Source: Kangsaoukella pontilimi (GTDB lineage: Bacteria; Pseudomonadota; Alphaproteobacteria; Rhodobacterales; Rhodobacteraceae). Taken from it: DNA of 64,000 bases. Position 1 is the stretch's first letter; the number at the start of each line of letters is the position of its first letter. The stretch spans positions 1,054,001 to 1,118,000 of the forward strand of contig NZ_WUPT01000001.1 in the NCBI RefSeq assembly GCF_009830125.1, written 5' to 3'. The notes beneath the pieces were generated by a model. It saw only the letters and a program-made list of their open reading frames with translations. It ran no database searches and had not been told where the DNA came from. A program made the position numbers and the translations under genes. Below are positions 22,290 through 57,948 of the stretch, in pieces.

Positions 22290-22396
22290 CGCCCGCCCCT
22301 TCTCGCCCCGCCTCTGCCTTAAGCCTAGCAGGGCGACCGGCGATCACATGCCGAACGCTCCGGGAAAATGTCTGTTTGCGACCTCGCCGCAGAAAA

Positions 22397-25300
22397 TCAG
22401 AGGTCGATCTCGATTACGCCGTCTGGCTCGGCGGCACGGCTCTGACAGGTGATGATGGCGCCCTCGCGCTGCGCTTTGGACAGAACGAAGTCGCGATGTT
22501 CGACCTCGCCCGAGACCAGACCGCACTTGCAGACCCCGCAAATCCCGTCCGAGCACTTGATGTCGATGGCATAGCCGTTGGCCACCAGAACATCCGACAG
22601 CGACTTGTCGGCGGGCACCTCGAACTCGCGCCCGCTTTGCGCCAGCCGCACCTTGAACGGGTGATTTTCATACTCCGGCAGTTCGGGGACCGAGAAGTAT
22701 TCGAGATGCCGCGCGTCTTCGGGAAAGCCCTTGGCCTCGGCGGCCTCCATTACGGCGGACATGTAGCGGTCGGGGCCGCAGGTATAGACATGCTGGCCAT
22801 CGGTAAACTGCGGCAAGGTCGCGGCCAGGTCGATCCGCGTGCCCTCGTCCGAGACATGGATATGCACCCGGTCGGCCCAAGGCACGGAGGCGAGATCCTC
22901 GAGATAGCCCGCCGACGCTCGCGACGGGATCGAGTAATGCAGATCGAAGGGACGGCCAAGCGCGTGCAGCCTGTGCGCCATGGCGATCATCGGCGTCACT
23001 CCGATCCCGCCCCCCATCAGGAAGGAATGCGCCGCGTCCTCGACCAGCGGGAAATGGTTGATCGGACGCGAGATGAAGACCTTCCGGCCCGGCGTGAAGA
23101 TGCGATGCAGAAGCGCCGACCCGCCCCGGCCCATATCCTCGCGCAGGACCCCGATCTGGTAGACCGAGCGGTCCGCCGGATCGCCCGACATCGAGTATTG
23201 CCGGAGGAATTCGGGCGCGACGACGATATCCAGATGCGCGCCCGCCTCCCATTCCGGCAGATCGCTGCCATCGAGACTGCGGAACTCGTATTTGGTCACG
23301 CCGTCCGCCATGACCTCGGCCTTCGTCACCTCGACCCTCAGGACCGGGCTTTCACCCGCCGCGGTGTAGCGGTGGATGACGCTTTCGTCGCCCTCCTTCA
23401 GCCGCTCGCGATAGACCTCGGCCGTGACCATGGCCTGATAGGCCTCGATCCCTGCCTCGCGGTCCATCGGGAAGGGATAGGGCCATGGATGCGGCGCGAG
23501 GTTCGCGGGGTAGACGGCCAGCGTCTGATCCTCGTATTTCAGGTCGAGATCGGTCTGCAGGCCGCGCTCGTTCACGGGATGCTCGGTCGGCCGATAAGCG
23601 CCGTCCTCCTGCAGCTTGAGATCCCACCACCATTTCTTGACCGGGTTCAGCCCGCCCCGCCCCATGGCGTCGTCGATCCGTTGCAGAACAGGGGCGCTTT
23701 GCGGAAGCGTCATCGCCGCCCACCGGAAAGGTTTCTCCGAGAAGATTCCTTCGAGATTCCACGGACAGGTCTTCATGCAGCGCCCGCACATCGCGCCGCC
23801 ATCGGTCGTGATCCGGTAGGTGGCGCATTTCTGGCTGTCAGACTTCCAGATCTCATAGCCGTTGAACATCAGCTTCGGCCCGGCAGTGATCGCGCCCGAG
23901 GGACATTCACGGGCGCATTTGTTGCAGCCCTCGCAGAACTTCTGCAGCCCGAAGTCGATGGGTTTGTCATGCTCCATGGGCATGTCGGTGGTCACGACAC
24001 CCGATTTCAGGCGCGGTCCGAGGAACGGGTTGAGGATGACTTCGCCAATGCGGCTGACCTCGCCCAGCCCCGACAAGAGCAAGAGGGGCGGTTGCAGCAC
24101 CTCGCCGTCGATCACCGTGTGGGCCTTTGCCGAGTATCCAAGGTTCCGGATCTGCCGCGCGATCACACCGCCCAGAAGCGAAAAGCGCAGGTAGGCGCGC
24201 ATCGACTGCGCGACGCTGATCCAGTCGTCGCCGGACGCGCCCTCCATCGTCTCGAAGCCCTGATCGACGATCATGGAAATCGCTTGATCGTGGCGCGGCG
24301 TGATCGGCGCGCCAGTGGCATCATGGGAATACCACGCCCAGTCGGGGCACCGGCTGAGGCCCACCGCGTCGATCCCAAGGAAGTAACAGGCCGCCTTGAC
24401 CGCCAGCGCATTCTGCCGGGCGTCGCCGGGGCGCGCGCCGTCGCTGGCAGGCGCACCGTCCTGCAACAACGTGAAGGCGCCGAGGAGGCGCCGCTCGGCC
24501 GAGGACGTGGCCGATTTCCGTGCGTAATATCCGCCCTTTGCGTTGTCCTGAAGCGGTTTGCCCATGTCGCCGAACTGCGCACGGGCGAACATGTCTGTGC
24601 GCTTCGGCACGCGGGCCACGTTGGGCTCGTCGATATAGGTGGTGGGCTTTTCCACCCGCTTCAGCGTCTCGAACCTGTGCGGCCCCTTGTGAAACGGGCG
24701 GCGGCGGAAGGGATCGCCGTTCAGAACCGATTTCCGAAAGCCCGCGCCAACCCACCAGGCAGGGCCGAGGGTGCGAAACACCGGCTGCTGGCGGAGCGGA
24801 ACGAGGGGGCGGTCGGTGGCAAGATCGAGCGTCGTCGTGACGGCGGCGAGACCAAAGCGCGTTCCCAGGTAAGGCATTTCAACCACATCGCCCTCGACCG
24901 CCGCAAGCCCGGCGGCGACCGCCATCCGGTTAAGATCGATATCGGACGAGGTCGCGGTATGCGCCTTGGCCGAGTGGCCGAGAATACGCAGGTAGTTCGC
25001 GATGACCGCTGCCGTCTCGGCTGCGCGAAGGGCTGCGGCCTCCTCAGCCGCGCCGTCGATCCATTCGGTTCCCTCCTCGTCCTCGAAGGGGGCGCGGGGC
25101 ACGGCATTGACGAAGACGATGCCGAATGTATGGCCCTCGACCGAAGATGGCGGCGCGTCCATCGCTTCCTTCAGATCGGCCATGATCATGTCGATGCCGC
25201 TGGCCAATGTCTTGGTCTGCTTCGTGCGCAGCTCATCGGCCAGCCGGTCGATGCCCGGATTGCGCACAGGGTCGTCCAGCAGGATGGCCGCGCTCATGGG

Positions 25301-25609
25301 GCCGATCCCCACCATGGCCGCGTCGGAGAAATAGCCGAAGCCCTTCAGGTGCCGGGCGCGCTCGGCGGGGTCGGCCGGGATCTCGGACATCACCCTGGCC
25401 ACGGGCCCGTCGCGGAGCGCGTCCATCATAGCCTGATAGTCGTCCATGGCGTTGACGAGCGAGGCGGGCGTGTCAGGCCGGCGAAACGACAGATGCGGGC
25501 GAAGCGGTACCGACGCGAGATCGGGCATCGGCCCGCGTTCCAGCCGTTCCAGCGGATAGGGTCCGAGATGGACAGGACGTTTTTTCGTGGAGAATGCCTG
25601 GAATGTCAT
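22397..25609 (-). CDS. Self-sufficient cobalamin-dependent reductive dehalogenase fused to a flavin/2Fe-2S reductase
   Basis: A 1070-residue fusion. Residues about 1-560 are a catabolic reductive dehalogenase (RdhA) domain with two similar halves (NYLRILGHSAKAH at 205-217; RQIRNLGYSAKAH at 485-497), fitting the internal duplication known in the RdhA fold. Two 4Fe-4S clusters follow: CEGCNKCARECP (559-570) and CGRCMKTCPW (608-617). Tyr427 and Lys495 sit where catalytic Tyr and Lys are expected. There is no twin-arginine signal, so it is cytoplasmic. Residues about 750-970 are an FNR-like flavin reductase (GGGIGVTPM at 866) and 985-1070 a 2Fe-2S ferredoxin (CSDGICGVCKC). The layout is that of BhbA of Comamonas and of the self-sufficient Jhaorihella enzyme, which reduce halogenated phenols aerobically with NAD(P)H. 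The substrate here is unknown. Confidence 0.88.
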   Translation of the reverse strand: MTFQAFSTKKRPVHLGPYPLERLERGPMPDLASVPLRPHLSFRRPDTPASLVNAMDDYQAMMDALRDGPVARVMSEIPADPAERARHLKGFGYFSDAAMVGIGPMSAAILLDDPVRNPGIDRLADELRTKQTKTLASGIDMIMADLKEAMDAPPSSVEGHTFGIVFVNAVPRAPFEDEEGTEWIDGAAEEAAALRAAETAAVIANYLRILGHSAKAHTATSSDIDLNRMAVAAGLAAVEGDVVEMPYLGTRFGLAAVTTTLDLATDRPLVPLRQQPVFRTLGPAWWVGAGFRKSVLNGDPFRRRPFHKGPHRFETLKRVEKPTTYIDEPNVARVPKRTDMFARAQFGDMGKPLQDNAKGGYYARKSATSSAERRLLGAFTLLQDGAPASDGARPGDARQNALAVKAACYFLGIDAVGLSRCPDWAWYSHDATGAPITPRHDQAISMIVDQGFETMEGASGDDWISVAQSMRAYLRFSLLGGVIARQIRNLGYSAKAHTVIDGEVLQPPLLLLSGLGEVSRIGEVILNPFLGPRLKSGVVTTDMPMEHDKPIDFGLQKFCEGCNKCARECPSGAITAGPKLMFNGYEIWKSDSQKCATYRITTDGGAMCGRCMKTCPWNLEGIFSEKPFRWAAMTLPQSAPVLQRIDDAMGRGGLNPVKKWWWDLKLQEDGAYRPTEHPVNERGLQTDLDLKYEDQTLAVYPANLAPHPWPYPFPMDREAGIEAYQAMVTAEVYRERLKEGDESVIHRYTAAGESPVLRVEVTKAEVMADGVTKYEFRSLDGSDLPEWEAGAHLDIVVAPEFLRQYSMSGDPADRSVYQIGVLREDMGRGGSALLHRIFTPGRKVFISRPINHFPLVEDAAHSFLMGGGIGVTPMIAMAHRLHALGRPFDLHYSIPSRASAGYLEDLASVPWADRVHIHVSDEGTRIDLAATLPQFTDGQHVYTCGPDRYMSAVMEAAEAKGFPEDARHLEYFSVPELPEYENHPFKVRLAQSGREFEVPADKSLSDVLVANGYAIDIKCSDGICGVCKCGLVSGEVEHRDFVLSKAQREGAIITCQSRAAEPDGVIEIDL

Positions 25610-25673
25610 ATCGCGCCTGCCTTGCCCTGCCTGCCCTGACCTTAGCGCGCCCGCACGCCAGCACCAGCCCGCG

Positions 25674-32242: not shown

Positions 32243-33622
32243 TCAGCCGAACACGGATGTCAGCGCCCGGTCAATCGCGTCCGTCAGTGCGTCGATGTCG
32301 TCGGGTCCGGCGATCAGCGCGGGCGACAGGCAGAGCGTATTGTTGAAACCGGGGATAGAACGGTTCGTCGCCCCGATGATCACGCCTTCGGCCATGCAAT
32401 GTGCCACGACGGCTTGCACCATCTTCTCGGGCGCCGGCTCCTTGCTCGCGCGGTCGGTGACCAGTTCTGCCCCGCAGAACAGCCCCTTGCCCCGCACGTC
32501 GCCCACGACGCGGTGCTTTTCCTTGAGCGCGTGAAGGTTCCCCATCAGCCGCTCGCCCATCCTGAGAGTGTTCTCGAGAAGGCCCTCTTCTTCGATAATG
32601 GCCATGTTCTCGATCGCCGCCGCCGGACCGGCGGTGCAGCCGCCAAAGGTCGAGATATCTCGGAAATAGTCCAGCGGATCGTTCGGGTCCAACTTGAACA
32701 TCTCGAAGACCTTCTCAGTCGTGACCATGCAGGCAATGGCCGCATAGCCAGAGGCGACGCCCTTGGCCATGGTCACGAAATCCGGCTGAACCCCGTAATT
32801 CTGATAACCGAACCACGTGCCCGTACGCCCGATCCCGCAGACAACCTCGTCGATATGGAGCAGGATGTCGTATTTCCGGCAAATCTCCTGCACGCGGGGC
32901 CAGTAGCCCTCGGGCGGGGTGATGACGCCGCCGCCCGCCGTGATCGGCTCGAGGCAGAGCGCACCCACCGTGTCGGGACCCTCGCGCAGGATCACCTCTT
33001 CGATCTGGTCGGCGGCCCATTCGCCGTAATTCTCGGTCTCGACCTGCGCGCGATACTCAAGGCAATGCGGCACCTCGACAAAACCCGGCGCGAAGGGGCC
33101 GTATTGCGCGTTCCGCTCGTACTGACCGCCCGCAGACATCGTGGCGAGCGTCGAGCCATGATAATCCCGCGCACGGTAGAGGATCTTGTGCTTCTGCCCG
33201 CCATAGCGCTTGTGCGCGATCTGGCGGACCATCTTGAAGGCCTTCTCATTCGCTTCGGAGCCCGAGTTCACGTAGTAGACCCGGCTCATCCCGGGCATCT
33301 TGGCAATCAGCTTTTCGGCAAAGCGCGAGCCGGGGATCGAGCCTGCGGACTGCGCGAAATAGTTCATCTGCAGGAGCTGGTCGCGGACCGCATTCGCGAT
33401 CCGCTCGCGGCCATAGCCCACGTTCACGGTCCAAACACCACCCGAAACGCCGTCCAGATGCTCTTTCCCCTTCTGATCCCAGACACGCATCCCCTTACCC
33501 TCGACGATGATCCGGGGGTCGGTCGTCTCATAGGGCTTGTGCTGCGACAGGTGATGCCAGAGATGGGCGCGGTCGGCTTCGACCACATCGGTCAGATCAT
33601 TGGGCGTCAGTTGCGTATTCAT
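32243..33622 (-). CDS. tpa: Taurine:pyruvate aminotransferase
   Basis: A 459-residue class III (omega) PLP aminotransferase. Taurine and pyruvate give sulfoacetaldehyde and alanine. The protein starts at ATG 33622 (MNTQLTPNDLTDVVEADRAH) and has the family's opening, SGVWTVNVGYGRERIANAVR, the HIDEVVCGIGRTG cofactor segment and the PLP-lysine in TMAKGVASGYAAI. The identification as Tpa rests on context as much as sequence: divergent TauR-type regulator, xsc, pta and a pair of TauR-like operator repeats. Another omega-amino acid (for example beta-alanine) is the main alternative. Confidence 0.88.
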   Translation of the reverse strand: MNTQLTPNDLTDVVEADRAHLWHHLSQHKPYETTDPRIIVEGKGMRVWDQKGKEHLDGVSGGVWTVNVGYGRERIANAVRDQLLQMNYFAQSAGSIPGSRFAEKLIAKMPGMSRVYYVNSGSEANEKAFKMVRQIAHKRYGGQKHKILYRARDYHGSTLATMSAGGQYERNAQYGPFAPGFVEVPHCLEYRAQVETENYGEWAADQIEEVILREGPDTVGALCLEPITAGGGVITPPEGYWPRVQEICRKYDILLHIDEVVCGIGRTGTWFGYQNYGVQPDFVTMAKGVASGYAAIACMVTTEKVFEMFKLDPNDPLDYFRDISTFGGCTAGPAAAIENMAIIEEEGLLENTLRMGERLMGNLHALKEKHRVVGDVRGKGLFCGAELVTDRASKEPAPEKMVQAVVAHCMAEGVIIGATNRSIPGFNNTLCLSPALIAGPDDIDALTDAIDRALTSVFG

Positions 33623-33691
33623 GAGGCGCGGATCCCTTGCCTGAGTGGGCCTTGTGGGCATGGTTCAGAATTGCCCGTTAACCACGTGGCG

Positions 33692-33778: not shown

Positions 33779-35245
33779 ATGGCAATCAACGCGGAAACCT
33801 TCTTTCTCGACGACCGGGCGGGCGGCACGCTCCAGCACCGGATCAAGCGCTTTGTGGTGGACGGCGTCCTTTCGGGACGCTTCCAGCCCGGCGAACGGAT
33901 GCCGTCGAGCCGCGCGCTGGCCAATCGGCTGGGCGTCAGCCGGATCACGGTGACGCTGGCCTATACCGACCTCGTGGCGGACGACTATCTCACTTCGCGC
34001 GGACGGTCGGGATATTTCGTGTCGGACACGGCGCCCGCGGCGCCAAGTTTCCCGATGGAAGATCTGCGGGACACGACAGAGATCGACTGGTCGCGGTTTC
34101 TGGCCCATCGGCCCGAACCACCGGACGCCGTGACCCGGCCAAGCGACTGGCAAAGCTACCCCTTCCCCTTCATCTACGGCCAGGCTGACCCAACGCTCTT
34201 CGACAGTCAGAACTGGCGGCTTTGTGCGCTTCAGGCGCTTGGGCAAAAGGATTTCGACGCGCTGACCTCGGACCAGTACGAGAGGGACGATCCGCTTCTG
34301 GTCGACTTCATCCGCCGCCACATCCTGCCCCGTCGCGGCATCAAGGCGGCACCAGAGGAAATCCTGATCACCATGGGCGCGCAGAACGCGCTCTGGCTTG
34401 CCGCGCAGCTTCTTCTTACGCAGCGCAGGACGGCGGTGGTGGAAAATCCGGGCTATCCGGGCCTTCGCGATATTCTCGCCCAGACGCGGTGCCACACGGC
34501 TCACGTGGATGTGGACGCCGAAGGTCTGAACCCCGACCGCCTGCCCGAGACGCTCGATGTCCTTTTCGCGACGGTCAGCCACCAATGCCCCACCAACGCC
34601 ACCATGCCGGTCGAGCGCCGCAGGGCGCTGCTGGAGCGGGCCGCGCGCGACGGGTTCTTGATCGTGGAGGATGACTACGAATTCGAGCTCACCTTCGAGC
34701 GGTCGCCCTCTCCCTCGCTCAAGTCGATGGACGATGCAGGCGCGGTGATCCACGTGGGATCCTTCTCGAAATCGCTTTTCCCGGGCCTGAGGCTCGGCTA
34801 CCTCGTCGCCGCCCGGCCTTTCGTTGCAGAAGCCCGCAGGCTGAGGGGCACGGTCCTGCGACATCCGCCGGGCTTGGTGCAGAGAACGGCGGCGAACTTT
34901 CTGTCGCTCGGGCATTATGACGCCCAGATCAACCGGATGCGGGGCGCGTTTCAGCGGCGGCGGAAGCTGATGCAGACCGCCATCGCAGAACATGGCCTGA
35001 TGCCGGCGGGCGACATGACGAGCGGCGGCTCGTGTTTCTGGATGTGCGCACCAGACCACGTGGACACCGCCGACCTCGCCCGCCGCCTTTATGCGCGGGG
35101 CGTGGTGATCGAGCCGGGCGCGGCGTTTTTTCAGGATCCCGCGCAAGGGCGTCCCTTCTACCGGCTGGCCTATTCCTCGATCGCCTCGGCGCGTATTCCG
35201 AAGGGGATCGAGATCATCGCCGACACGATCCGGCAACTGGACTGA
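33779..35245 (+). CDS. tauR: MocR-type regulator of taurine catabolism
   Basis: A 488-residue MocR/GntR regulator: an N-terminal winged helix (residues about 15-80, with SSRALANRLGVSRITVTLAYTDL) fused to a class I aminotransferase-like domain that keeps the PLP-lysine segment SFSKSLFPGLRLGYL. TauR of Rhodobacter capsulatus has this layout and activates tpa in response to taurine. It is divergent from tpa across 156 bp holding two operator-like direct repeats, and is followed 100 bp later by xsc on the same strand. The symbol is assigned from context plus domain order. Confidence 0.88.
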   Translation: MAINAETFFLDDRAGGTLQHRIKRFVVDGVLSGRFQPGERMPSSRALANRLGVSRITVTLAYTDLVADDYLTSRGRSGYFVSDTAPAAPSFPMEDLRDTTEIDWSRFLAHRPEPPDAVTRPSDWQSYPFPFIYGQADPTLFDSQNWRLCALQALGQKDFDALTSDQYERDDPLLVDFIRRHILPRRGIKAAPEEILITMGAQNALWLAAQLLLTQRRTAVVENPGYPGLRDILAQTRCHTAHVDVDAEGLNPDRLPETLDVLFATVSHQCPTNATMPVERRRALLERAARDGFLIVEDDYEFELTFERSPSPSLKSMDDAGAVIHVGSFSKSLFPGLRLGYLVAARPFVAEARRLRGTVLRHPPGLVQRTAANFLSLGHYDAQINRMRGAFQRRRKLMQTAIAEHGLMPAGDMTSGGSCFWMCAPDHVDTADLARRLYARGVVIEPGAAFFQDPAQGRPFYRLAYSSIASARIPKGIEIIADTIRQLD

Positions 35246-35345
35246 TCAGGCCCGGCCTACTGGCCCTATGACTGCCCCTCGGCGGGACGATAATGGGCGT
35301 CAGCGGAAATTCCGGCGCGTGCGCGCCAAGACAGGACATGCACTC

Positions 35346-37118
35346 ATGAAAATGACAACCGAAGAAGCCTTTGTGAAGGTTCTCCAGCGTCACGGCATCA
35401 CCGATGCCTTCGGGATCATCGGCTCGGCCTTCATGCCGATTTCGGACCTGTTCCCCAAGGCGGGCATCATGTTCTGGGACTGCGCGCATGAGGGCTCGGG
35501 CGGGATGATGGCCGATGGCTACACTCGCGCATCTGGCAAGATGTCGATGATGATCGCGCAGAACGGCCCCGGCATCACCAATTTCGTGACTGCCGTGAAG
35601 ACCGCCTACTGGAACCACACGCCACTTCTGCTGGTGACGCCGCAGGCGGCCAACAAGACCATCGGCCAGGGCGGTTTTCAGGAAGTCGAGCAGATGAAGC
35701 TGTTCGAGGACATGGTCGCCTATCAGGAAGAGGTCCGTGACCCGTCGCGCGTGGCCGAGGTTCTGAACCGCGTGATTCTGAAGGCCAAGCGCGCCAGCGC
35801 CCCGGTGCAGATCAACATGCCGCGCGATTTCTGGACGCAGGTGATCGACATAGACCTGCCGGCGGTCGTCGAATTCGAGCGCCCCTCGGGCGGCGAGGCG
35901 GCGATCACGGCGGCGGCCGAGCTTCTGTCCTCGGCCCGCTTCCCGGTGATCCTGAACGGCGCGGGCGTGGTCCTTGCCGGGGCGATCCCCGCCTCTGCCG
36001 CGCTGGCCGAGCGGCTGGATGCGCCGGTCTGCTGCGGCTACCAGCACAATGACGCCTTCCCCGGCTCACATCCGCTGTTCGCCGGACCCTTGGGATATAA
36101 CGGCTCGAAAGCGGGCATGGAACTGATCGCCAAGGCCGATGTAGTGCTGGCTCTCGGCACGCGGCTGAACCCGTTTTCGACGCTGCCGGGCTATGGCATC
36201 GACTACTGGCCCAAGGACGCCAAGATCATTCAGGTCGACCTGAACCCCGACCGGATCGGCCTGACCAAGCCGGTGAGCGTCGGCATCGTGGGCGACGCCA
36301 AGGACGTGGCGACCCGCATCCTCGACAAGCTCTCCGACACGGCGGGCGACGTCGACCGGGACGAGCGCCGCGCCACCATCGCCCAGACCAAGAGCCGTTG
36401 GGCGCAGGAACTGTCCTCGATGGATCACGAGGACGACGATCCCGGCACCTCGTGGAACGAGCGCGCCCGCGCCGCAAAGCCCGAGTGGATGAGCCCCCGC
36501 ATGGCGTGGCGCGCGATCCAGCAGGCGCTGCCGAAAGAGGCGATCATCTCGTCCGATATCGGCAACAACTGCGCCATCGGCAACGCCTATCCCACATTCG
36601 AAGCGGGTCGTAAGTATCTGGCACCCGGCCTTTTTGGCCCTTGCGGCTATGGCCTGCCTGCGATCATCGGCGCCAAGATCGCCTGCCCCGATACACCTGT
36701 CGTGGGCTTCGCGGGCGATGGTGCTTTCGGCATCGCGGTGACCGAACTGACCGCCATCGGACGCAAGGAATGGCCCGCCATCACCATGATCGTCTTCCGC
36801 AACTACCAGTGGGGCGCGGAAAAGCGGAACTCGACGCTCTGGTATTCGGACAATTTCGTCGGCACCGAACTGGACGAGGGCGTGAGCTATGCCGCCATCG
36901 CCAGCGCCTGCGGCCTGAAAGGTGTGCAGGCCCGCACGATGGACGACCTGACCGACGCTCTGGATCAGGCACTCAAGGATCAGGCGGCGGGCAAGACCAC
37001 GCTGATCGAAGCGCTGATCAATCAGGAACTGGGCGAGCCTTTCCGCCGCGACGCGATGAAGGCACCCGTGGCCGTCGCGGGCATCGACCCCGCCGACATG
37101 CGCTCGCAAGAGGTCTAG
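35346..37118 (+). CDS. xsc: Sulfoacetaldehyde acetyltransferase
   Basis: Thiamine diphosphate enzyme that converts sulfoacetaldehyde and phosphate to acetyl phosphate and sulfite. The 590-residue protein begins MKMTTEEAFVKVLQRHGI, which is the family's usual start, with IGSAFMPISDLFPKAGI and QNGPGITNFVTAVKTAYWNH close behind, and a C-terminal TPP-binding GDGAFGIAVTEL. It differs from acetolactate synthases by this N-terminal segment. The upstream in-frame ATG at 35268 gives 26 extra residues that the family lacks. The 3' end overlaps pta (minus strand) by 4 bases. Confidence 0.96.
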   Translation: MKMTTEEAFVKVLQRHGITDAFGIIGSAFMPISDLFPKAGIMFWDCAHEGSGGMMADGYTRASGKMSMMIAQNGPGITNFVTAVKTAYWNHTPLLLVTPQAANKTIGQGGFQEVEQMKLFEDMVAYQEEVRDPSRVAEVLNRVILKAKRASAPVQINMPRDFWTQVIDIDLPAVVEFERPSGGEAAITAAAELLSSARFPVILNGAGVVLAGAIPASAALAERLDAPVCCGYQHNDAFPGSHPLFAGPLGYNGSKAGMELIAKADVVLALGTRLNPFSTLPGYGIDYWPKDAKIIQVDLNPDRIGLTKPVSVGIVGDAKDVATRILDKLSDTAGDVDRDERRATIAQTKSRWAQELSSMDHEDDDPGTSWNERARAAKPEWMSPRMAWRAIQQALPKEAIISSDIGNNCAIGNAYPTFEAGRKYLAPGLFGPCGYGLPAIIGAKIACPDTPVVGFAGDGAFGIAVTELTAIGRKEWPAITMIVFRNYQWGAEKRNSTLWYSDNFVGTELDEGVSYAAIASACGLKGVQARTMDDLTDALDQALKDQAAGKTTLIEALINQELGEPFRRDAMKAPVAVAGIDPADMRSQEV

Positions 37119-37992: not shown

Positions 37993-39126
37993 ATGAGTGA
38001 AGGCGTCAAGATCAATCGTGGCCTGAAAGGCGTTTATTTCGAGCGCTCAGGCGTGAGCGACATCGACGGGGCGGCAGGAGAACTCAGCTATCGCGGGTAT
38101 TCGATCCACGATTTGGCAACTAAGTCGACCTTCGAAGAGGTGTCCTATCTGCTCATCCATGGCGAGTTGCCGACCGCCGACCAGCTTGCCGCCTTCGACC
38201 GTGACCTCCGCGCCGCACGCGACCTGCCCGGCGGGGTTTTCGACGTGATCCGTGCGACGGCGGACGGGCATCCGATGGATGTTCTCCGCACCGCTGTCTC
38301 GGCGCTGGCCGCGCTCGACCCGCGCGCCAAGGCCACCAGCCGCGAGGCGTTTCTGGAGAACGGCACGCGGCTGATCGCGCAGCTTCCTGTGCTCGTCGCC
38401 GCGCATCACGCGATCCGCTCGGGCCGTGACCCGGTGGCGCCCGATCCGTCGCTCGGCCATGCGGCCAACTGGCTCTGGATGCTGAAGGGCGAGAAACCCT
38501 CCGATCACGCCACACGTCTGGCTGATGTGGACCTGATCCTGCATGCCGAGCACGGCGCCAATGCCTCGAGCTTCGCCGCCCGCGTGACCGTGGGAACCGA
38601 GGCCGATCTCCATGGCGCGGTGGTTACGGCGCTGTCCACGCTGGCAGGCCCGGCCCATGGTGGTGCGGCCGAGGACGTGATGAAGATGGTTCACGAGATA
38701 GGACACCCCGAGAACGCCGCCGCCTACGTTAAGGCCAAGCGCGCGGCGCGCGAGGCCGTCACCGGCTTTGGGCATCGGGTTTACCGCGCCGAAGATCCGC
38801 GAGCGCGGCACATGCGCGACGGGGTCGAGGCGCTAGGCCGCGAGATGGGTCAGCCCGAGTGGTTCGAGATCCTGCAGGCCGTGGTCGAGGCGATGAAACC
38901 CTATTCCCGGCACGGGCTGAATGTGAATGTCGATTTCTATTCCGGCGTCGTCTACCAGCTTCACGGCATCCCGATGGACCTTTACGTTCCGATCTTTGCC
39001 ATCGGGCGCGCGCCGGGCTGGGTCATCCAATGCGTCGAGCAACTGGACCGGAACATCCTGATCCGGCCCCTGACGCTTTACGAAGGGCCGGAGCCCCGCG
39101 CCTATGTCCCGCTTCAGGACCGCTGA
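37993..39126 (+). CDS. Citrate synthase-family protein (short form)
   Basis: A 377-residue citrate/2-methylcitrate synthase with all catalytic residues: His in HAEHGANASSF, GPAHGGA, GFGHRVY, and the Asp in NVDFYSG. It condenses oxaloacetate with acetyl-CoA (or propionyl-CoA). Acetyl-CoA would come from the taurine route next door. It starts 20 bp from the divergent pta and its last 13 bases overlap the convergent MttB-family gene. A short form may be 2-methylcitrate synthase; no prpB or prpD lies nearby, so citrate is favoured. Confidence 0.86.
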   Translation: MSEGVKINRGLKGVYFERSGVSDIDGAAGELSYRGYSIHDLATKSTFEEVSYLLIHGELPTADQLAAFDRDLRAARDLPGGVFDVIRATADGHPMDVLRTAVSALAALDPRAKATSREAFLENGTRLIAQLPVLVAAHHAIRSGRDPVAPDPSLGHAANWLWMLKGEKPSDHATRLADVDLILHAEHGANASSFAARVTVGTEADLHGAVVTALSTLAGPAHGGAAEDVMKMVHEIGHPENAAAYVKAKRAAREAVTGFGHRVYRAEDPRARHMRDGVEALGREMGQPEWFEILQAVVEAMKPYSRHGLNVNVDFYSGVVYQLHGIPMDLYVPIFAIGRAPGWVIQCVEQLDRNILIRPLTLYEGPEPRAYVPLQDR

Positions 39127-40676
39127 AGCCGGATCGGAAAGCGCTCTCTCAGCCGCTTGTCGGTGGCGGGGTCGATCAGGTGGCTTGCCTTGGCGAGGAT
39201 GCTCTCCATCCGCTCTTTCGCGGTGGGCAGCAGGTGCGGCTTGCCCGCCTCGTCCCATTCCTTTGGGCTCATCCGGTTGCCGACGACGGGATAGACGTAT
39301 TCCGACTGCATCAGCCTGAGCGTCTGCTCGGCGCCCAGGTAATGCCCCGGCCCGCCCAGGCAGACCTGCCGCATCGTGTCGAGCGACACGGCGTCCTCGG
39401 TCACGTCGATCCCCCTGATACAGCGCAGCACCTGCCCGATGATGTCGTCGCCCAGAACAAGGCTTTCGTGGCAGAAGCCAAGGAGCGAGGCGTGCATCCC
39501 CGCCGCCTCATAGACCATGTTGAGGCCCGATAGCCCCGCCAGCGTGTTCGTGATCGCCTGTTCCCAGCCCGCCTGCATGTCCGGGAGCTTGCTGTCGGTG
39601 ATCCCCGCCGCTGCGCCCCCCGGCAGACCGTAGAAGTGGTGCATCTGTGCGCAGCCCGCCGTCAGCAGCGCCTGCTCGGCCGAGCCGCCGGACATCGCGC
39701 CGGTGCGAAGGTCCGACACGAAGGGCCATGTGCCGAAGACCGCCGGATGCCCTGGCGCGATGGCGTTGACATAGACGACACCGGCGAGGCACTCGGCCAC
39801 CGCCTGAACGATCGCGGCCGCGATGGGCGCGGGCGCGGTCGCCCCGGCCTGCCCCGCCGACAGCAGCAAAACCGGCATCCCGGCGCGGATCGCCACCTCC
39901 ATCGCCATGCAGCTTTCCGAGGCGAATTTCATCGGCGGCACGACGAAGCAGTTGGAGTTCGACACGAACGGCCGCGAGCGCCACGCGTCCTCGCCACCCG
40001 CGACCTCGTGGATCAGCGCCATGCAACCGGCGACATTCCCCGGCTCGGAAAAGGATGTGCCCACGTGCTTGCCTGTCCCGGCAAGCGCCGCGTAGAGCGT
40101 ATTGATGTCCAACTCGTAGGGGTCGGCCACGTCGCGGCAGACCATGACACGCTGGAAGAAGTGGATATTGTCCAGATGTTCGACCAGCCGCGCGGCATCG
40201 TAGAGGTCCGCCACGGTGGACTCGCGGTATTGTCCGGTCTCGGGGTCGACCACGTGGACCGCCGCGCCCGCCGTTCCGAAATGCACCTTGTTGCCGAGAA
40301 GGTGGAGGTCATGGCGAGGGTCTCGCCCGCAGAGCGTAATGCCGCGCGCGGCGACCGCCAGCATGTCCTCGACCAGCGCACGCGGGAACCGGATACGACC
40401 GTCCGCGCCCTCGATCGCGCCCGCGCCGGTCAGAACCTCGACGCCCGAGGGCGGCGCATCCGCCAGTCCGATCTCTTCCAGCGCGTCGAGAGCAGCCGCG
40501 TGGATGCGCGCCACATCGGCCTCGGAAAGCGGCTTGTACTGCCCACCCGAGAGCCCTGCCCTGACCGGGCGGAGCGCCTCGTCAAGCGGTGCGGCCCTCA
40601 GCGCCACGCGCGCGGCACGCCCGCCGCTTCGGCGGCTCTTCTGGGGTGTTTCAACCGGCGGTCCCGGCTCAGTCAC
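39114..40676 (-). CDS. MttB-family methyltransferase, second copy, non-pyrrolysine
   Basis: A 520-residue trimethylamine methyltransferase-family protein, distantly similar to the one at 10.6-12.1 kb. GTG 40676 has GGGAGGG seven bases upstream. It has no in-frame TAG. The C-terminal barrel carries CLGGPGHYLGAEQTL, equivalent to the GPGGHYLGCAHT segment of the other copy. The first 20-50 residues are basic and Pro-rich. No corrinoid protein gene is near. It is the last gene on the minus strand before the citrate synthase and could either act on an N-methylated compound of the taurine island or be part of the aromatic island. Confidence 0.82.
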   Translation of the reverse strand: MTEPGPPVETPQKSRRSGGRAARVALRAAPLDEALRPVRAGLSGGQYKPLSEADVARIHAAALDALEEIGLADAPPSGVEVLTGAGAIEGADGRIRFPRALVEDMLAVAARGITLCGRDPRHDLHLLGNKVHFGTAGAAVHVVDPETGQYRESTVADLYDAARLVEHLDNIHFFQRVMVCRDVADPYELDINTLYAALAGTGKHVGTSFSEPGNVAGCMALIHEVAGGEDAWRSRPFVSNSNCFVVPPMKFASESCMAMEVAIRAGMPVLLLSAGQAGATAPAPIAAAIVQAVAECLAGVVYVNAIAPGHPAVFGTWPFVSDLRTGAMSGGSAEQALLTAGCAQMHHFYGLPGGAAAGITDSKLPDMQAGWEQAITNTLAGLSGLNMVYEAAGMHASLLGFCHESLVLGDDIIGQVLRCIRGIDVTEDAVSLDTMRQVCLGGPGHYLGAEQTLRLMQSEYVYPVVGNRMSPKEWDEAGKPHLLPTAKERMESILAKASHLIDPATDKRLRERFPIRLQRS

Positions 40677-40729
40677 TGGCAAGCCCTCCCGCGCCTGGCC
40701 TTGACCAAGTCTTGAGCAAGCGGACATCT

Positions 40730-41622: not shown

Positions 41623-42897
41623 TCAGAGGGCCCGGATCGCCTGGTTGACGGCGAAGGCGGCGCTGTAGAGCGGGGCCATCACGCCGGCGCTACGGACAGG
41701 CCGCGGTGTGGTGAGAGGCAGAGGGAGGTCTTCGGGCGTCTCGCCCGCGGCAAGGCGCGCCAGCACGTCCCCCATCACGGTCCCGGTGGTGATGCCGCGC
41801 CCGTTATACCCAATGGCAGTGAACACGCCGTCGTCCAGACGGCAGAGGCGCGGCAGGTGATCGGGCGTCATGGCGATGCGCCCCGACCACGCCTCTTCGA
41901 ACGCGACCGGTCCGAGATCGGGAAAGAGCCGGGAGAGCCGCCTCAAAGCCCAGCTCCGGGACAGACCGCGCTCTGCCGAACCGATAACGGCACCCATCGA
42001 GCCGATGACCAGCCGGTTGCCCGCTTCCTTCCGGAGGCTGAACATGATCCGGCCCGTGTCCCACAGCCCCTCGCCGCCTGGCAGTATGCGGTCGGCAATG
42101 TCGCCGAGGGGCCGGGTGGCAAGCTGAAAATAGCTGATCGGAGTGAACACCCGGTCGAGCCCCGGCCAAAGCGAACCGGTATAGGCGTTGGTTGCCAGCA
42201 CCACGCGCCCAGCCCGAACCGCTCCGCGCCCGGTGGTCACACACCAGCCCGCCCCGTCCCGCGAGAGGGCCCGGACCGGCGTCTCGACCGAGATCACGGC
42301 TCCGGCCGCCCGCGCCGCGCGCGCCAGCCCGCGCGCATAGCCCATCGGATTGATCGTCCCCGCCCGGTCATCAAGGAGGCCACCGTGGAACGCCGTGCTT
42401 CCCGTCCTCTCGGCCACCTCATCGCGCGTGAGCAACCTTACCGGCGCGCCGAGCCGCGACCAGGCGTCGTGCCGCGCGGCGAGCCCCGCCATCGCGCGGG
42501 GGGCATGTGCGGCATGGATTGTCCCGTTACGCGTCGCCTCGCACCGGATCTGGTGCCGTTCGATCAGTGAGAACACACGTTCTGGCGCGTCGCCGAAAAG
42601 CCGGATGAACCTTGGCCCGTAGACGTCGCCAAGGCTGCGCCGGACGGCGTCGGGCGGGTGCCAGACGCCGGCATTGACCAGCCCCACGGCCCGGCCCGAG
42701 CCGCCCTGCCCGATCCGGCCCGCCTCGACCACATGGACCGACATGCCCCGCTCGGCGGCAAAAAGCGCCGTGGCGAGTCCGGTAAACCCGCCCCCCACGA
42801 CGGCGAGGTCGGCCACGGCGTCTCCGTCGAGAGGCTGGCCCATGTCCCGCTCTTCGGCGGTCACGTCCCAGAGCGAGAGCGAAGGTCCGTTCGTCAT
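41623..42897 (-). CDS. FAD-dependent amine/amino-acid oxidoreductase (DadA/PuuB-like)
   Basis: A 424-residue DAO-fold oxidoreductase: GGGFTGLATALFAAERG near residue 35 is the FAD-binding site, and the C-terminal IGYNGRGITTGTVMG completes it. The closest named relatives are D-amino acid dehydrogenase and gamma-glutamylputrescine oxidase. It probably oxidises a secondary or primary amine. It is followed closely by FAAH, SDR and MttB genes. The exact substrate is not predictable. Confidence 0.85.
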   Translation of the reverse strand: MTNGPSLSLWDVTAEERDMGQPLDGDAVADLAVVGGGFTGLATALFAAERGMSVHVVEAGRIGQGGSGRAVGLVNAGVWHPPDAVRRSLGDVYGPRFIRLFGDAPERVFSLIERHQIRCEATRNGTIHAAHAPRAMAGLAARHDAWSRLGAPVRLLTRDEVAERTGSTAFHGGLLDDRAGTINPMGYARGLARAARAAGAVISVETPVRALSRDGAGWCVTTGRGAVRAGRVVLATNAYTGSLWPGLDRVFTPISYFQLATRPLGDIADRILPGGEGLWDTGRIMFSLRKEAGNRLVIGSMGAVIGSAERGLSRSWALRRLSRLFPDLGPVAFEEAWSGRIAMTPDHLPRLCRLDDGVFTAIGYNGRGITTGTVMGDVLARLAAGETPEDLPLPLTTPRPVRSAGVMAPLYSAAFAVNQAIRAL

Positions 42898-42913
42898 GCC
42901 CTGCGCCGCGCTG

Positions 42914-43615
42914 TCAGACGACCACGACGTCCAGCGTACCGACGCCCTCGATCTGGCCGCTCAATCGGTCGCCCCGGCGGACCGGCCCGACCCCAGCCGG
43001 CGTCCCGGTCAGGATCACGTCACCGGGCGCAAGCGTGAAAAGCCCCGAGAGGATCGAGATCATCTCTTCGGTTTTCCAGATCATCTGGGCGAGATCGCCG
43101 TCCTGCCGCCGCGTGCCATTCACATCCAGAGTGATCGATCCGCTAAAGGGATGACCAACGTCGGTCGCCCGGACGAGCCTGGACGCAGGCGCCGACATCT
43201 CGAACGCCTTCCCGATTTCCCAGGGGCGGCCCATCTTCTTCATCTGGCCCTGCAGATCGCGCCGGGTCATATCGAGCGCGACACCGTAGCCGAAGACACA
43301 GTCGAGTGCAGCCTCGCGCGGAATGTCATCTCCGCCCCGACCAAGCGCGACCAGCAGTTCGATCTCGTGATGCACGTCCTGAGACGCTTTCGGATAGGGA
43401 AACTCGGTGGCATCGGGGACAAGGTTGTCGGGGTTCTTCTGGAAGAAGAAAGGCGGTTCCTTGTCCGGGTCATGCCCCATCTCGATGGCATGGTCGGCAT
43501 AGTTTCGGCCGACGCAATAGACCCTCCGCACCGGAAAAAGCGCGTCGCTGCCTTGCACGCTGAGGGCCGTGACGGGGGCCGGATCGAAAACGAAACTGCG
43601 GGGATCGGTCGGCAT
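42914..43615 (-). CDS. Fumarylacetoacetate hydrolase-family protein
   Basis: A 233-residue FAH-fold protein with VYCVGRNYADHAIEMGH, PPFFFQKNPDNLVP, and the metal site in HHEIELLVALG and the later GVALDMTRRD segment. Family members hydrolyse or decarboxylate 2,4-dioxo acids from aromatic ring cleavage (fumarylpyruvate hydrolase, 5-oxopent-3-ene-tricarboxylate decarboxylase). It sits upstream of the SDR and directly downstream of GalD/LigK/GalB, so a role in ring-cleavage product processing is reasonable. Confidence 0.88.
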   Translation of the reverse strand: MPTDPRSFVFDPAPVTALSVQGSDALFPVRRVYCVGRNYADHAIEMGHDPDKEPPFFFQKNPDNLVPDATEFPYPKASQDVHHEIELLVALGRGGDDIPREAALDCVFGYGVALDMTRRDLQGQMKKMGRPWEIGKAFEMSAPASRLVRATDVGHPFSGSITLDVNGTRRQDGDLAQMIWKTEEMISILSGLFTLAPGDVILTGTPAGVGPVRRGDRLSGQIEGVGTLDVVVV

Positions 43616-43704
43616 TCGGGTAATCCTTCGGACTGAGGGGCGACGTGCCCCCTCTCTTTTCAGTGCCAGACGGGGCGTCCCGTCAAGGCGGAAAACGGAG
43701 CCGG

Positions 43705-44760
43705 TCAGGCCGGAAAGACGCGCCCGTCCATCAGTTTCCGGCAGGTGCGCAAAACCTCGGCACGGATCATGCGCTCGCCCTTCATCGTGGCGACGACGGT
43801 CAACTCGCCGGTCGGATGCTCGACCCGCATCTCCTTCACGTCACCCCCTGGCAGATGCGCCAGATCGTGACCGACCGCACCCGGCGTGGCGCAGGCCGTC
43901 GCGACGCTGACGGCACCGAGAACCCCGATGGCCTTGTGGCAGCGATGCGGAATGAACGTGCGGGTGGAAATGGTGCCGCCCTCCGCCGGTGCACTGACCA
44001 TGGTGAGCTTTGGGACGGATTTCACCGTGACGTCGCCAAGGTTCATCATGGGACCCGCAGCACGCCGGATCGCCTCCAATCGCTGCCGGAGCGGTTCGTT
44101 GGCCTCAAGCTCTGCCGGGGTTTCTCGGCCCGACACACCCATATCCGCCGCATTCAGCACGACCACGGGCATCCCGTTGTCGATCAGCGTCACCGTGACC
44201 CCGTGGATTTCGTCCGCAACCTGTCCTGTCGGAAAGAGCGCGCCGCAGGTGGACCCCGCCGTGTCCCGGAACTCGACCGGCACTGGGGCGGCGGTGCCGG
44301 GAACCCCGTCGATCCGCGCGTCACCCGAATAGCGAACCTGCGCGCCCGGCGTGGCGACGCGCAGGACCGCCGTTTGCCCCGTGTTCTCCATGAAGACCGT
44401 CACGGGTGTTTCCCCGTCACGCGCCGGAACCAGCCCCCGCTCGATGGAAAAGGCGCCCACGGCGGCCAGCATGTTCCCGCAATTCTGGCCATCGCTGACC
44501 AGCGGCTGATCCACGAAGATCTGCAGGAACAGATAGTCCACGTCGACCCCGTCGCGCGACGAGGGTGCGACGACAGCCACTTTCGAGGTCAAAGGGTCCG
44601 CACCGCCCATCCCGTCGATCTGGCGAGGATCGGGCGAGCCCATGACGCCGAGGAGAGTGCGATCCCGCTCGGCGGGGTCGGACGGCAGATCGCCGGCCAC
44701 AAAGAAACCGCCCTTCGACGTCCCGCCACGCATCCACATGACGGGGATGCCGTCACTCAT
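43705..44760 (-). CDS. galD: 4-Oxalomesaconate tautomerase (PrpF/GalD family)
   Basis: A 351-residue PrpF-fold isomerase. It begins with [19 protein letters not shown] and has [13 protein letters not shown] and CGALFPTGQ as the two Cys-containing motifs of the diaminopimelate epimerase fold. In gallate catabolism GalD converts the keto and enol forms of 4-oxalomesaconate before hydration by GalB. The gene overlaps ligK by 8 bases and belongs to the ligK-galB block. The pairing with these two genes makes the name more certain than sequence alone. Confidence 0.87.
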
Positions 44761-45427
44761 ATGTCAGACCCTTGTCGGCAAGCCGCCCGCGCATGTCGTA
44801 GATGTCGAGGCCCAGCTCCCCCGCCGCGAAGCGCGCGCGCTTGGCCTCTTCGGCGTCGAGCCGCTTTTGTGCCGCCGCCATGACGGCTTGGGCGTTCGCG
44901 CGCGGCACCACGCAGACCCCGTCGTCATCGGCCACGATCACGTCGCCCGCATTCACGAGCGCGCCCGCGCAGACCACCGGCACGTTGACCGAGCCGACCG
45001 TCTCCTTGACCGCCCCCTGTGCCGAAACGGCGGTGGACCAGACGGCAAACCCCATGGCGCGCAGGTCTCGGGTATCCCGCACGCCGCTGTCGAGAACCGC
45101 CGCGCGGCAGCCCCGCGCCATGGCGGAGGTGGCAAGGAGGTCTCCGAAATAGCCCATGTCACAGGGCGATGTGGGCGCGAGGACGAGGATATCGCCCTCT
45201 TGCAACTGCTCGATGGCGACATGGATCATCCAGTTATCGCCGGGCGGAGCCGAAATCGTGACCGCCGACCCGGCAATCCCGAAATCCTGCTGGATGGGGC
45301 GCATCTTCGACGACATCAGCCCCGTACGCCCCTGTGCCTCGTGGACCGTGGCCACGCCTGCCGCGCCAAGTCGCGCGATCAGATCGGGATCGGCCCGTTC
45401 GATGTTCTGGACTACGACACCGCCCAT
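44753..45427 (-). CDS. ligK: 4-Carboxy-4-hydroxy-2-oxoadipate aldolase
   Basis: A 224-residue RraA-fold aldolase (called LigK or GalC) that splits 4-carboxy-4-hydroxy-2-oxoadipate into pyruvate and oxaloacetate. Characteristic segments are [19 protein letters not shown] near residue 20, [14 protein letters not shown] near 165, and [10 protein letters not shown] near 75. ATG 45427 follows GAGGGGG. It overlaps galD and is 10 bp from galB, so the three act as one operon. Confidence 0.9.
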
Positions 45428-45437
45428 GGCGCCCCCC

Positions 45438-46172
45438 TCAAAGCTCGTCGACGGTACGCGGGAAGACCGACTGGAAGCCCTCCGCATATTCCGCTTTTCG
45501 GCCGCCCGCCTGCCCGCCCGAGTTCCGTCGGAAGTGGTTGGCGCGGTTCTGCGCGACCCGCGTGTAGTACTCCCAGAGGTGCTCCTGCCCCTCCATGCAC
45601 TCGATCGCGGCACGCTTCTTGCCCCAGACGGGCGTGATGTCGAGGAACGTGTCCGGCTTCCAGCCCATCTGTTCGGTCTGATGCGGTTCGAACAGGTAGA
45701 GTTGCGGCGCGCCCAGCACCTTCTCGCCGGGATTGTGGCCCCAGGCCTGCGCGATCATCCGCGTCTCAAGCGTCAGCTTCATCGCGTACATGTGGTCGGT
45801 GTTGTACGGATCATATTGCGAATGTGAGAGCATGAATTTGGGCTGCACCGCCCGGATCACGTCGACCACGCGGTATTTCTGCTCTTCGGTCAGGTCGAGC
45901 GGATAGTCCCCGCAATCGAGAAACTGGATGTCATGAGCCCCAAGCGCCTTGGCTGCGTTCTCGGCCTCGGCCCGGCGCGAGGATTTGACCTTGTCGAGCG
46001 TCATCCCCTCCTGCTTCCAGAGCTTGGCGCTTTCGCCCCGCTCACCGTAGGAAAGACAGAGGATCGTGATGTTGTAGCCAAGCTCCTGATGAAGCGCGAT
46101 GGCGCCACCGCAGCGCCAGACGAAATCGGCCGAATGCGCCGACATCACCAGAGCCGTCTTGTTGTCCGACAT
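45438..46172 (-). CDS. galB: 4-Oxalomesaconate hydratase, PIG-L family
   Basis: A 244-residue PIG-L/LmbE-fold metalloenzyme that starts [20 protein letters not shown] and contains [25 protein letters not shown], and [13 protein letters not shown], all features of Pseudomonas GalB. It hydrates 4-oxalomesaconate to the substrate of LigK. This is unusual, because the equivalent Sphingobium enzyme LigJ is of an unrelated family. AAGGA lies 8 bases before ATG 46172. It is preceded by iorB by 14 bp. Confidence 0.9.
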
Positions 46173-46186
46173 GTCGTTCGTCCTTG

Positions 46187-47740
46187 TCACTCTGCCGCGT
46201 CGAGCGCGGGCTTTCTCGAACCGGCGACATCCTTGAACGCCGCCACCACCTGATCGAGCGCGGCGCTGTCGGGGTCTTTCACCGCCGCCAGCCGGGCCTG
46301 AAGCACGGCGTCGGCCAGCATGTCGGAGGGCAGACGGCCATCGAGGCAGGGCGCGATCACCTCGCCTTCGATCAGCCGCCAGTTCCGTGTGCCCCGCTTG
46401 TAGGTCGAGGCATAGCCCCGGACCAGCCGCGCGGTTTCCACGATCTGGATCGCCGCGTCGGGTGCCACGTCGAGCGCCTTTTCCACATGACCGAGCCAGA
46501 GGTCGAGCCACTCCATCTCTTCGTGGTGGCGAAGGTTTTTTTGCCGCCAGCGTTTTGCATAAGCGAGGAATTTCAGTCGGATAAACCCGGAAAAGCGCGT
46601 GGTTTTGACCTTCATCGGCCACGAATAGCCGCTCCAGCCGTTCCGCTGGGACATGGCGATCAGCCGCTCGCCCAGACTTTTGGGCAGCATTCCGAAAACC
46701 TCTTCGGGACCGGGCTTCATGTATTCCCGGACGTCCACGATATCGCCCGCCCGTGCCTTTGCTTCGGCGCGGACGCGGGCGAGCCGGGCCTGTCTCAGCT
46801 TCAGCTCGGCCACACGATGCGTGTCCTCGTAGCTCATCCGCACGGCCATGTGCCGGGCGAGCGCGGCAAGGAGTTCGGGCGTGGCATTGGGGTGCTCGGA
46901 AACGCGCTTCAGATGGCTGAGATACGTCTCGGCATAGGCCCGGTCCTGATAGTCGGTCAGACGGCGCATCCCCTCGGCAGCGAGGCCCGCCGCTTCACCC
47001 GTCAGGAATTCGGTCTCGGGCGACGCGACGAGCACGGGTGTTGGCGCCTCTTCCATCTCCGGTGCCGGTGCGGCCTTTGCCTTGCCCGTCAGATCGGGCA
47101 CGATGGACGCCTCTGCCGCTAGCGCCAGCCCCGCTTCAAAGCCGCGCAGGTTCGCCTCGGAGGCGCGTTTGCCGGACTGGACCGCCTTCAGACAGCTTTC
47201 GACCGGGATAGGCAGCACGCCCGATCCCGCGACCAGCCCCATGACGACCGAGTTAAGATGCGCCGACACCTTTTGTGCCTCTTTCGAAAAGTCGCTGATC
47301 GTCGCCTTTGCCGCGAAGTTGCGGAGCGTCGCGACCATCGGCTCGACCTCAAGCCGCCCGTCCTCCATGGCGCTTTTCTCGTCCACGGTGAAGGTCCGGT
47401 GCCGCGACGCAAAGAGCCGGGTGCGGTCGGGCGTGACGTATCCCGCCTTGACCATGCGAACAGCTTCCAGAAGCTCGGTCGCGACCAGCACGTCCACCTT
47501 GCCCGGCGCGGGATGCAGCGCCATGACGGGGCGCTTGTCCCCGGTCTTGGGGAGGAATTCGAGATAATAGGTCGTGGCCCCGGTCCGCTGTGCAACGCCC
47601 GGCACCGAGGTCCGCTGGACCCAGAGCCCCGCATCTAGCGCCGCTTCGGTCAGCCAGCCGGCCAGAACACCGCCACCCTCGCCGCCCATGGCCGCGATCA
47701 GCAGGCGGACGGGCTTCTGCGTCTTCGTCGCGCCGCTCAT
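46187..47740 (-). CDS. iorB: Indolepyruvate:ferredoxin oxidoreductase, beta/gamma subunit with DUF6537
   Basis: A 517-residue protein. The N-terminal 190 residues are the pyruvate-ferredoxin oxidoreductase gamma domain (LLIAAMGGEGGGVLAGWLTEA near residue 12), followed by a linker, and the C-terminal 280 residues match DUF6537, which is fused to this subunit in proteobacteria. With IorA it oxidises arylpyruvates to arylacetyl-CoA and CO2. It overlaps iorA by 4 bases. Confidence 0.88.
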   Translation of the reverse strand: MSGATKTQKPVRLLIAAMGGEGGGVLAGWLTEAALDAGLWVQRTSVPGVAQRTGATTYYLEFLPKTGDKRPVMALHPAPGKVDVLVATELLEAVRMVKAGYVTPDRTRLFASRHRTFTVDEKSAMEDGRLEVEPMVATLRNFAAKATISDFSKEAQKVSAHLNSVVMGLVAGSGVLPIPVESCLKAVQSGKRASEANLRGFEAGLALAAEASIVPDLTGKAKAAPAPEMEEAPTPVLVASPETEFLTGEAAGLAAEGMRRLTDYQDRAYAETYLSHLKRVSEHPNATPELLAALARHMAVRMSYEDTHRVAELKLRQARLARVRAEAKARAGDIVDVREYMKPGPEEVFGMLPKSLGERLIAMSQRNGWSGYSWPMKVKTTRFSGFIRLKFLAYAKRWRQKNLRHHEEMEWLDLWLGHVEKALDVAPDAAIQIVETARLVRGYASTYKRGTRNWRLIEGEVIAPCLDGRLPSDMLADAVLQARLAAVKDPDSAALDQVVAAFKDVAGSRKPALDAAE

Positions 47741-49911: not shown

Positions 49912-49936
49912 TTGGATGTTCTCCTGATACGCGCGC

Positions 49937-50353: not shown

Positions 50354-50356
50354 CGC

Positions 50357-52167: not shown

Positions 52168-52173
52168 GGCCGA

Positions 52174-53217: not shown

Positions 53218-53344
53218 GTAGTCCTCCCGTTATGTGCCCCGCACCCGGTTCTTCGAGGTGTCGGAGCCTGTTGAAAAGTTAGGCGGGCGCGATGGGCTTG
53301 GCAAATGAAGTTCATCCGATTGCCCGGTTTTTCCGCGCCCCTGC

Positions 53345-54535: not shown

Positions 54536-54536
54536 G

Positions 54537-57926: not shown

Positions 57927-57948
57927 TCTCTTCTCCTTGGGCTCTGGG

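Follow-up and report, generated by a model that had tools for sequence, protein, structure and literature searches.

A predicted phenol-dehalogenating RdhA-PDOR fusion within a flavoprotein demethylase operon of Kangsaoukella pontilimi

The window analyzed here, a 64,000-nucleotide stretch of the Kangsaoukella pontilimi genome (assembly GCF_009830125.1, contig NZ_WUPT01000001.1, positions 1,054,001 to 1,118,000), carries on its minus strand a gene for a catabolic reductive dehalogenase (RdhA) fused to a phthalate dioxygenase reductase (PDOR) module (Table 1; unprefixed positions are those of the window). The reading frame is intact over all 1070 residues. A plus-strand open reading frame (ORF; 22376-25639, 1087 aa) overlaps the gene, and the homology is in the minus frame. 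The protein scores 195 bits against the NCBIfam reductive dehalogenase model TIGR02486 (cut-off 160.35), and Pfam recognizes a 4Fe-4S dicluster domain and a Fer2 domain (989-1059). In PDB sequence searches, the N-terminal part matches NpRdhA of Nitratireductor pacificus in two stretches (4ras, E 5e-157; 6zxu family) and residues 753-1066 match phthalate dioxygenase reductase 2pia (E 2.5e-54), P450-PDOR fusions giving better matches to this C-terminal module. The cysteine motifs are CxxCxxCxxxC, starting at C559, and CxxCxxxCP, starting at C608; alignment to NpRdhA adds C595, which completes the second 4Fe-4S cluster. The ORF, Pfam, PDB, and cysteine-motif results thus agree with the initial annotation, which had described two 4Fe-4S motifs, a reductase, and a 2Fe-2S ferredoxin in a single chain of this length.

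The same annotation had pointed to a repeated SAKAH motif (213-217 and 493-497). The two copies lie inside a longer internal duplication (residues 175-269 versus 455-551; 35% identity over 97 columns, E 5e-12), and since that duplication is significant, the repeat is not a chance one. In the family alignment described below, the exact letters vary among relatives, only the A and the H being nearly conserved. Catabolic RdhAs are described as carrying a vestigial N-terminal duplication (PMC10463259), and by sequence the repeat is the mark of this duplication of the cobalamin-binding domain typical of them. The absence of a twin-arginine translocation (Tat) signal, also claimed earlier, holds by a pattern test of residues 1-80, in which no twin-arginine motif was found; the sole RR pair among the first 60 residues (43-44) does not fit. 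The signal expected of a respiratory RdhA is therefore missing by this test. The genes adjoining rdhA encode a GMC flavoprotein and a FAD-GcvT protein, and no search aimed at the membrane anchor RdhB was made.

To place the active site, we used a family alignment of the query and 176 homologues (156 distinct loci including BhbA, and 20 hold-out loci) together with the NpRdhA stretch. Distinct loci were defined at <97% nucleotide identity, and 2 of the 20 hold-out loci repeat earlier ones, leaving 18 new. The resulting 177 rows, query included, contain two near-duplicates, and none was removed for stops or length; since loci were picked among good matches, broken copies are under-represented. 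NpRdhA residues F291, S422, M423, Y426, K488, and R552 correspond to F341, S469, M470, Y473, K535, and R599 of the query, and all six are invariant (177/177 rows); by this alignment, the catalytic Tyr, Lys, and Arg are present. The eight 4Fe-4S cysteines (C559, C562, C565, C569, C595, C608, C611, and C615) are Cys in NpRdhA and in all 177 rows; among the 2Fe-2S cysteines, C1019, C1024, and C1027 are found in every row and C1055 in 176. In NpRdhA, S422, K488, and R552 bind the phenol hydroxyl of the substrate. Because all three are kept in the query, a phenolic substrate is predicted, and this is the strongest argument for one.

These results also bear on the proposal that the protein is not a dehalogenase but an epoxyqueuosine-reductase-like enzyme (QueG) or some other cobalamin reductase whose substrate has drifted. 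QueG has the same fold as RdhA, and the query does give a weak match to the QueG model TIGR00276. However, that match reaches 22 bits where 200 are needed, whereas the reductive dehalogenase model is passed; the phenol-binding and dyad residues are invariant; and the closest characterized relatives are dehalogenases. We therefore consider this proposal extremely unlikely.

Four characterized relatives inform the comparison. BhbA of Comamonas sp. 7D-2 (plasmid pBHB, NC_021077.1) is a full-length RdhA-PDOR fusion that is 50.2% identical to the query over 1064 residues. The catalytic unit of NpRdhA (4ras, 6zxu, 6zy1) is 43.9% identical over 572 aligned residues and shares all six compared active-site residues, but, unlike the query, NpRdhA lacks the PDOR module. 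JtRdhA of Jhaorihella thermophila, as described in PMC10463259, resembles the query in its vestigial N-terminal duplication, two 4Fe-4S clusters, fused PDOR, lack of a Tat signal, NpRdhA-type Y/K/R residues, and origin in a marine roseobacter relative. The same source reports that, with NADPH, JtRdhA removes the halogen from ortho-bromo and ortho-iodo phenols, chlorinated ones being inhibitory; that electrons pass from NADPH through flavin and 2Fe-2S to the 4Fe-4S/corrinoid unit; and that the mechanism involves a halogen-cobalt interaction, with a proton from a Tyr-Lys/Arg pair (PMC10463259). Ros_A3X954 of Roseobacter sp. MED193 is likewise described as a marine roseobacter catabolic RdhA without a Tat signal; it debrominates 2,6-dibromophenol and, unlike JtRdhA, loses activity on oxygen contact (PMC13101508). 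The earlier assignment to the self-sufficient catabolic RdhAs of the BhbA and Jhaorihella kind is upheld by TIGR02486, 4ras, 2pia, and the identity to BhbA, and its supposition of a marine bacterium stands in that the relatives are marine roseobacters.

An AlphaFold2 model was built from a shallow alignment (59 sequences, 70-76% identical to the query). In a Foldseek search with this model, the 14 best PDB matches were all NpRdhA chains (TM-score by target 0.80-0.83), and the predicted fold is clearly that of an RdhA.

Altogether, we regard it as very probable that the K. pontilimi enzyme removes bromine or iodine from natural ortho-halogenated phenols in a reaction that depends on NAD(P)H and cobalamin, with cofactors, electron path, proton transfer, and halogen preference reasoned by analogy from the characterized relatives. 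The RdhA-PDOR protein would be soluble and self-sufficient. NAD(P)H would reduce the flavin of the C-terminal PDOR, and electrons would then pass through [2Fe-2S] and the two [4Fe-4S] clusters to base-off cobalamin. The cobalamin would attack the halogen ortho to the phenol hydroxyl, and a proton would come from Y473 with K535/R599, releasing bromide or iodide. Likely substrates would be natural bromo- and iodophenols, the best guess being ring-brominated 4-hydroxybenzoate or phenylacetate types, whose dehalogenated products may feed the cell's own 4-hydroxybenzoate/protocatechuate genes. The genome contains CobN-family matches, a PobA gene over its cut-off (C1:1136992-1138158; 683.9 bits, cut-off 538.7) on the same contig and 57 kb from rdhA, and a PcaH gene over its cut-off (C1:1135112-1135777), next to which a weaker match probably represents PcaG. 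Judging from these genes, the RdhA products probably feed PobA and PcaH, and the presence of both makes a route from bromo-4-hydroxybenzoate through 4-hydroxybenzoate and protocatechuate to ring opening possible. Protocatechuate 4,5-cleavage by LigB was ruled out, since the genome has no PF02900 match.

Several observations weigh against this interpretation or limit it. The K307 with which NpRdhA holds the carboxylate of its substrate, at the entrance to the pocket, is A357 in the query, and A419 has become V466; given these replacements, it is less certain that the substrate carries a carboxylate than that it is a phenol. The structural model is of moderate quality (mean predicted local distance difference test [pLDDT] score 72.7, predicted template-modeling score 0.63), and residues 499-533 and 570-594, within the corrinoid/Fe-S core, have pLDDT <50, so that the model gives no independent confirmation of the cobalamin pocket. 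Given the oxygen sensitivity of Ros_A3X954, oxygen tolerance of the query enzyme cannot be assumed. Finally, no aromatic gene adjoins rdhA in the K. pontilimi genome.

The gene is instead the fifth of six in a compact minus-strand operon that runs, from 33661 to 19875, in the order class III aminotransferase, FAD-GcvT 815, FAD-GcvT 814, GMC, RdhA, and FAD-GcvT 804 (FAD-GcvT proteins are named here by their length), with spacings of 45, -4, 42, 64, and 107 bp. The placement among FAD-GcvT and GMC genes is as first reported.

Table 1. Genes of the RdhA operon and of the divergent locus at its head
Feature	Coordinates	Strand	Remarks
FAD-GcvT, 804 aa	19875..22289	-	Last operon gene
RdhA-PDOR fusion, self-sufficient catabolic reductive dehalogenase	22397..25609	-	1070 aa, ATG start
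GMC flavoprotein alcohol dehydrogenase/oxidase, 530 aa	25674..27266	-	Under curated BetA cut-off
FAD-GcvT, dimethylglycine-dehydrogenase-like, 814 aa	27309..29753	-	4-bp overlap with next upstream gene
FAD-GcvT, 815 aa	29750..32197	-	Closest solved relative is dimethylglycine dehydrogenase 4pab
Class III aminotransferase	32243..33661	-	First operon gene; Tpa-like by position; no curated model over cut-off
MocR-type GntR/aminotransferase regulator	33779..35245	+	Divergent from operon; PdxR model over cut-off; TauR-like by position
Sulfoacetaldehyde acetyltransferase Xsc	35268..37118	+	TIGR03457 929.5 bits, cut-off 676.4

Since the operon aminotransferase faces a MocR-type regulator and Xsc, we read it from its gene context as probably a taurine aminotransferase; 33779-37118 (+) together with 32243-33661 (-) would probably make up a taurine locus, with the operon running out of it. 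Further along the window, 39114-40727 (-) encodes an MTTB-type methyltransferase (328.6 bits, below the pyrrolysine-type cut-off of 525), and 41623-58683 (-) holds an aromatic catabolic cluster with a LigM-type O-demethylase and a LigK aldolase over their cut-offs, an extradiol dioxygenase scoring just under its own, and PrpF, PIG-L, FAA hydrolase, TRAP transporter, and indolepyruvate-oxidoreductase-like genes.

From the GMC and FAD-GcvT neighbors, the initial annotation had suggested that the enzyme acts on an amine or choline-like molecule and not only on a phenol. Put as a pathway, RdhA would dehalogenate an N-methylated amine or choline-like molecule that the FAD-GcvT and GMC proteins demethylate and oxidize. 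The architecture of the operon is what this proposal would lead one to expect: the genes are co-directional, gaps do not exceed 107 bp, and no minus-strand terminator-like site was found in them. A scan for sigma-70-like promoters, itself weak evidence, found none in the operon region (shuffles give 1.8). However, the GMC protein reaches 428.4 bits against BetA TIGR01810, where 732.1 are needed, and falls below both choline dehydrogenase cut-offs, and the RdhA itself keeps the phenol-binding residues.

We examined whether the neighborhood is conserved in one set of 80 RdhA loci plus the window and a second set of 80 loci (kept from 471 matching stretches) plus five plasmid records, with the hold-out loci kept apart. 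No gene family besides RdhA occurs in more than 12 of the 81 loci of the first set, and the immediate neighbors, called with a home-made ORF picker that leaves some calls doubtful, differ. Among the Pfam families listed, MarR leads upstream of RdhA (13/80), followed by LysR (5) and SDR (4), and no family exceeds 6/80 downstream (DUF3572). One other genome of the genus was examined (a draft of 140 contigs, 96% complete); RdhA was not found in it, and the remaining operon genes have their homologues on five contigs: the aminotransferase with the regulator and Xsc on C80, and the others on C126, C69, C91, and C125. Broken linkage or paralogues are possible there, given the draft assembly and the 70-80% identities. 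In addition, FAD-GcvT 815 and 814 are adjacent on one strand in 20/20 stretches of other genera, none of which contains RdhA; homologues (69-77%) of the MTTB-type gene at 39114-40727 lie near this pair in 8 of the 20. FAD-GcvT 804 has orthologues in 46/120 genomes and, in all 25 other genomes with both genes, is unlinked to RdhA (different contigs or >200 kb apart, in draft assemblies).

A few loci do place such genes together. With the window excluded, GMC matches lie near RdhA more often than expected: 9 in 156 other distinct loci, namely four at <1 kb, four at 1-3 kb, none at 3-5 kb, and one at 5-8 kb, in bins that hold 310, 600, 572, and 832 kb over the 157 distinct loci including the window. 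Four of the GMC genes immediately precede RdhA in the same orientation, with 111-200 bp between the two. For FAD-GcvT, the corresponding counts over the same loci are 4, 0, 2, and 2, and two loci, L074 and L118, have an orthologue of FAD-GcvT 804 (74% and 80%) less than 650 bp from RdhA. These distance counts are post hoc and include related loci (GMC loci L165 and L177 look related). The 20 hold-out loci contain no GMC match and one FAD-GcvT match at 5.1 kb, a sample too small to refute a 5% association. We set the GMC-RdhA association aside as a guide to substrate, since it was noticed after the fact and was absent from the hold-out. The synteny comparison that the initial annotation had called for therefore yields scattered loci with GMC or FAD-GcvT near RdhA and no conserved neighborhood. 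As such, the single-pathway proposal appears very unlikely, and the amine or choline inference drawn from the neighbors finds no support.

A more specific version, in which the operon driven from the taurine locus serves as a single pathway for marine amines that are both N-methylated and ring-brominated (methylated sponge bromotyramines, for example), is a long shot. If it were true, one gene set would demethylate the amine, oxidize or transaminate its side chain, and reductively debrominate its phenol ring, and the recurrent GMC-RdhA and FAD-GcvT 804-RdhA neighborhoods would be traces of the same logic. Outside subscription journals, we found no paper that combines a reductive dehalogenase with dimethylglycine dehydrogenase, or triiodophenol with Roseovarius. 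An idea of homarine degradation was dropped, as a search listing gave no link.

The operon placement looks peculiar to the K. pontilimi genome and says little about the RdhA substrate; rather than a pathway, we see in it an insertion, specific to the lineage, behind the Tpa-like gene. Other loci show arrangements of their own. A Tpa homologue (74-77%) lies within 8 kb of RdhA in L036, L116, L123, and L131, two of which are Phaeobacter. In L036 (856-8182), RdhA is last in a same-strand run that includes BKACE, a class III aminotransferase, a class V pyridoxal phosphate enzyme, an EgtC-like amidotransferase, and PxpBCA-like genes; L123 and L131 share the first four genes of this run and L051 and L129 the Pxp-like three (families were scanned in L036). 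In L115 (7389-23209), RdhA has a FAD-GcvT gene (37%) on one side and an 814/815-type pair (77-78%) on the other, and all three of these genes are on the strand opposite to it. L100, L102, L104, L236, L241, L243, L244, and L248 each have a distant MTTB-type gene (25-28%) 0.9-1.8 kb upstream of RdhA and on the other strand, which is probably inherited synteny.

The family is broadly distributed. In a survey of whole Rhodobacteraceae genomes (about one per genus; matches at E 1e-200 or better), a match to the whole or nearly the whole RdhA-PDOR protein was obtained in 148/394. The named relatives belong mostly to the Rhodobacteraceae, and many are marine. Eight plasmid records have a match that covers 80% or more of the query; among them are those of Ruegeria sp. 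TM1040, Tritonibacter, and Jannaschia (70-71%). This distribution is not a new discovery, since PMC13101508 already calls bhbA homologues widespread in the Roseobacter clade. A few copies are broken or split; two of them (G269:C1:2006487-2009686 and G099:C4:333239-336426) are split into two frames, possibly as decaying genes or through sequencing errors. In the tree, the query groups with metagenome-assembled genomes (MAGs) labeled Rhizobiaceae and Granulosicoccaceae (support 0.998), which hints at transfer; the MAG labels may be wrong. Weak matches aside, these two MAGs do not share the window's neighbor genes. Foreign composition was rejected, with GC 0.650 versus 0.652 for the window and third-position GC 0.820 versus 0.804-0.835 for the neighbors.

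Such breadth with changing neighbors, together with the lead of MarR-family genes upstream, is what would be expected if RdhA served housekeeping-like salvage or detoxification, stripping many seawater bromo- and iodophenols without a dedicated pathway. The gene would then sit alone because no such pathway is needed. By contrast, BhbA lies in a plasmid aromatic cluster beside ligA, an extradiol dioxygenase subunit, and a transporter protein, where the query has flavoprotein demethylases, and RdhA of Nitratireductor sp. OM-1 lies near pobA and genes for an aldehyde dehydrogenase, protocatechuate and extradiol dioxygenases, and an aldolase. In L114, the closest locus in the tree, 19 bp separate the end of a DctM-like gene from the RdhA gene that follows it; an Aminobacter plasmid has an upstream MarR gene plus a TRAP transporter, and a Jannaschia plasmid a divergent MarR gene beside RdhA. 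Several of these contexts fit aromatic-acid uptake and breakdown. We hold the salvage role to be possible, if somewhat doubtful; it is a variant of phenol dehalogenation with the same chemistry.

Altogether, K. pontilimi adds an intact new member to a family already known for bromo- and iodophenol dehalogenation. The finding is also a warning against reading a substrate from one operon, since RdhA moves between unrelated neighborhoods. The breadth of the family suggests that these bacteria commonly strip phenols of their natural bromine and iodine under aerobic conditions.

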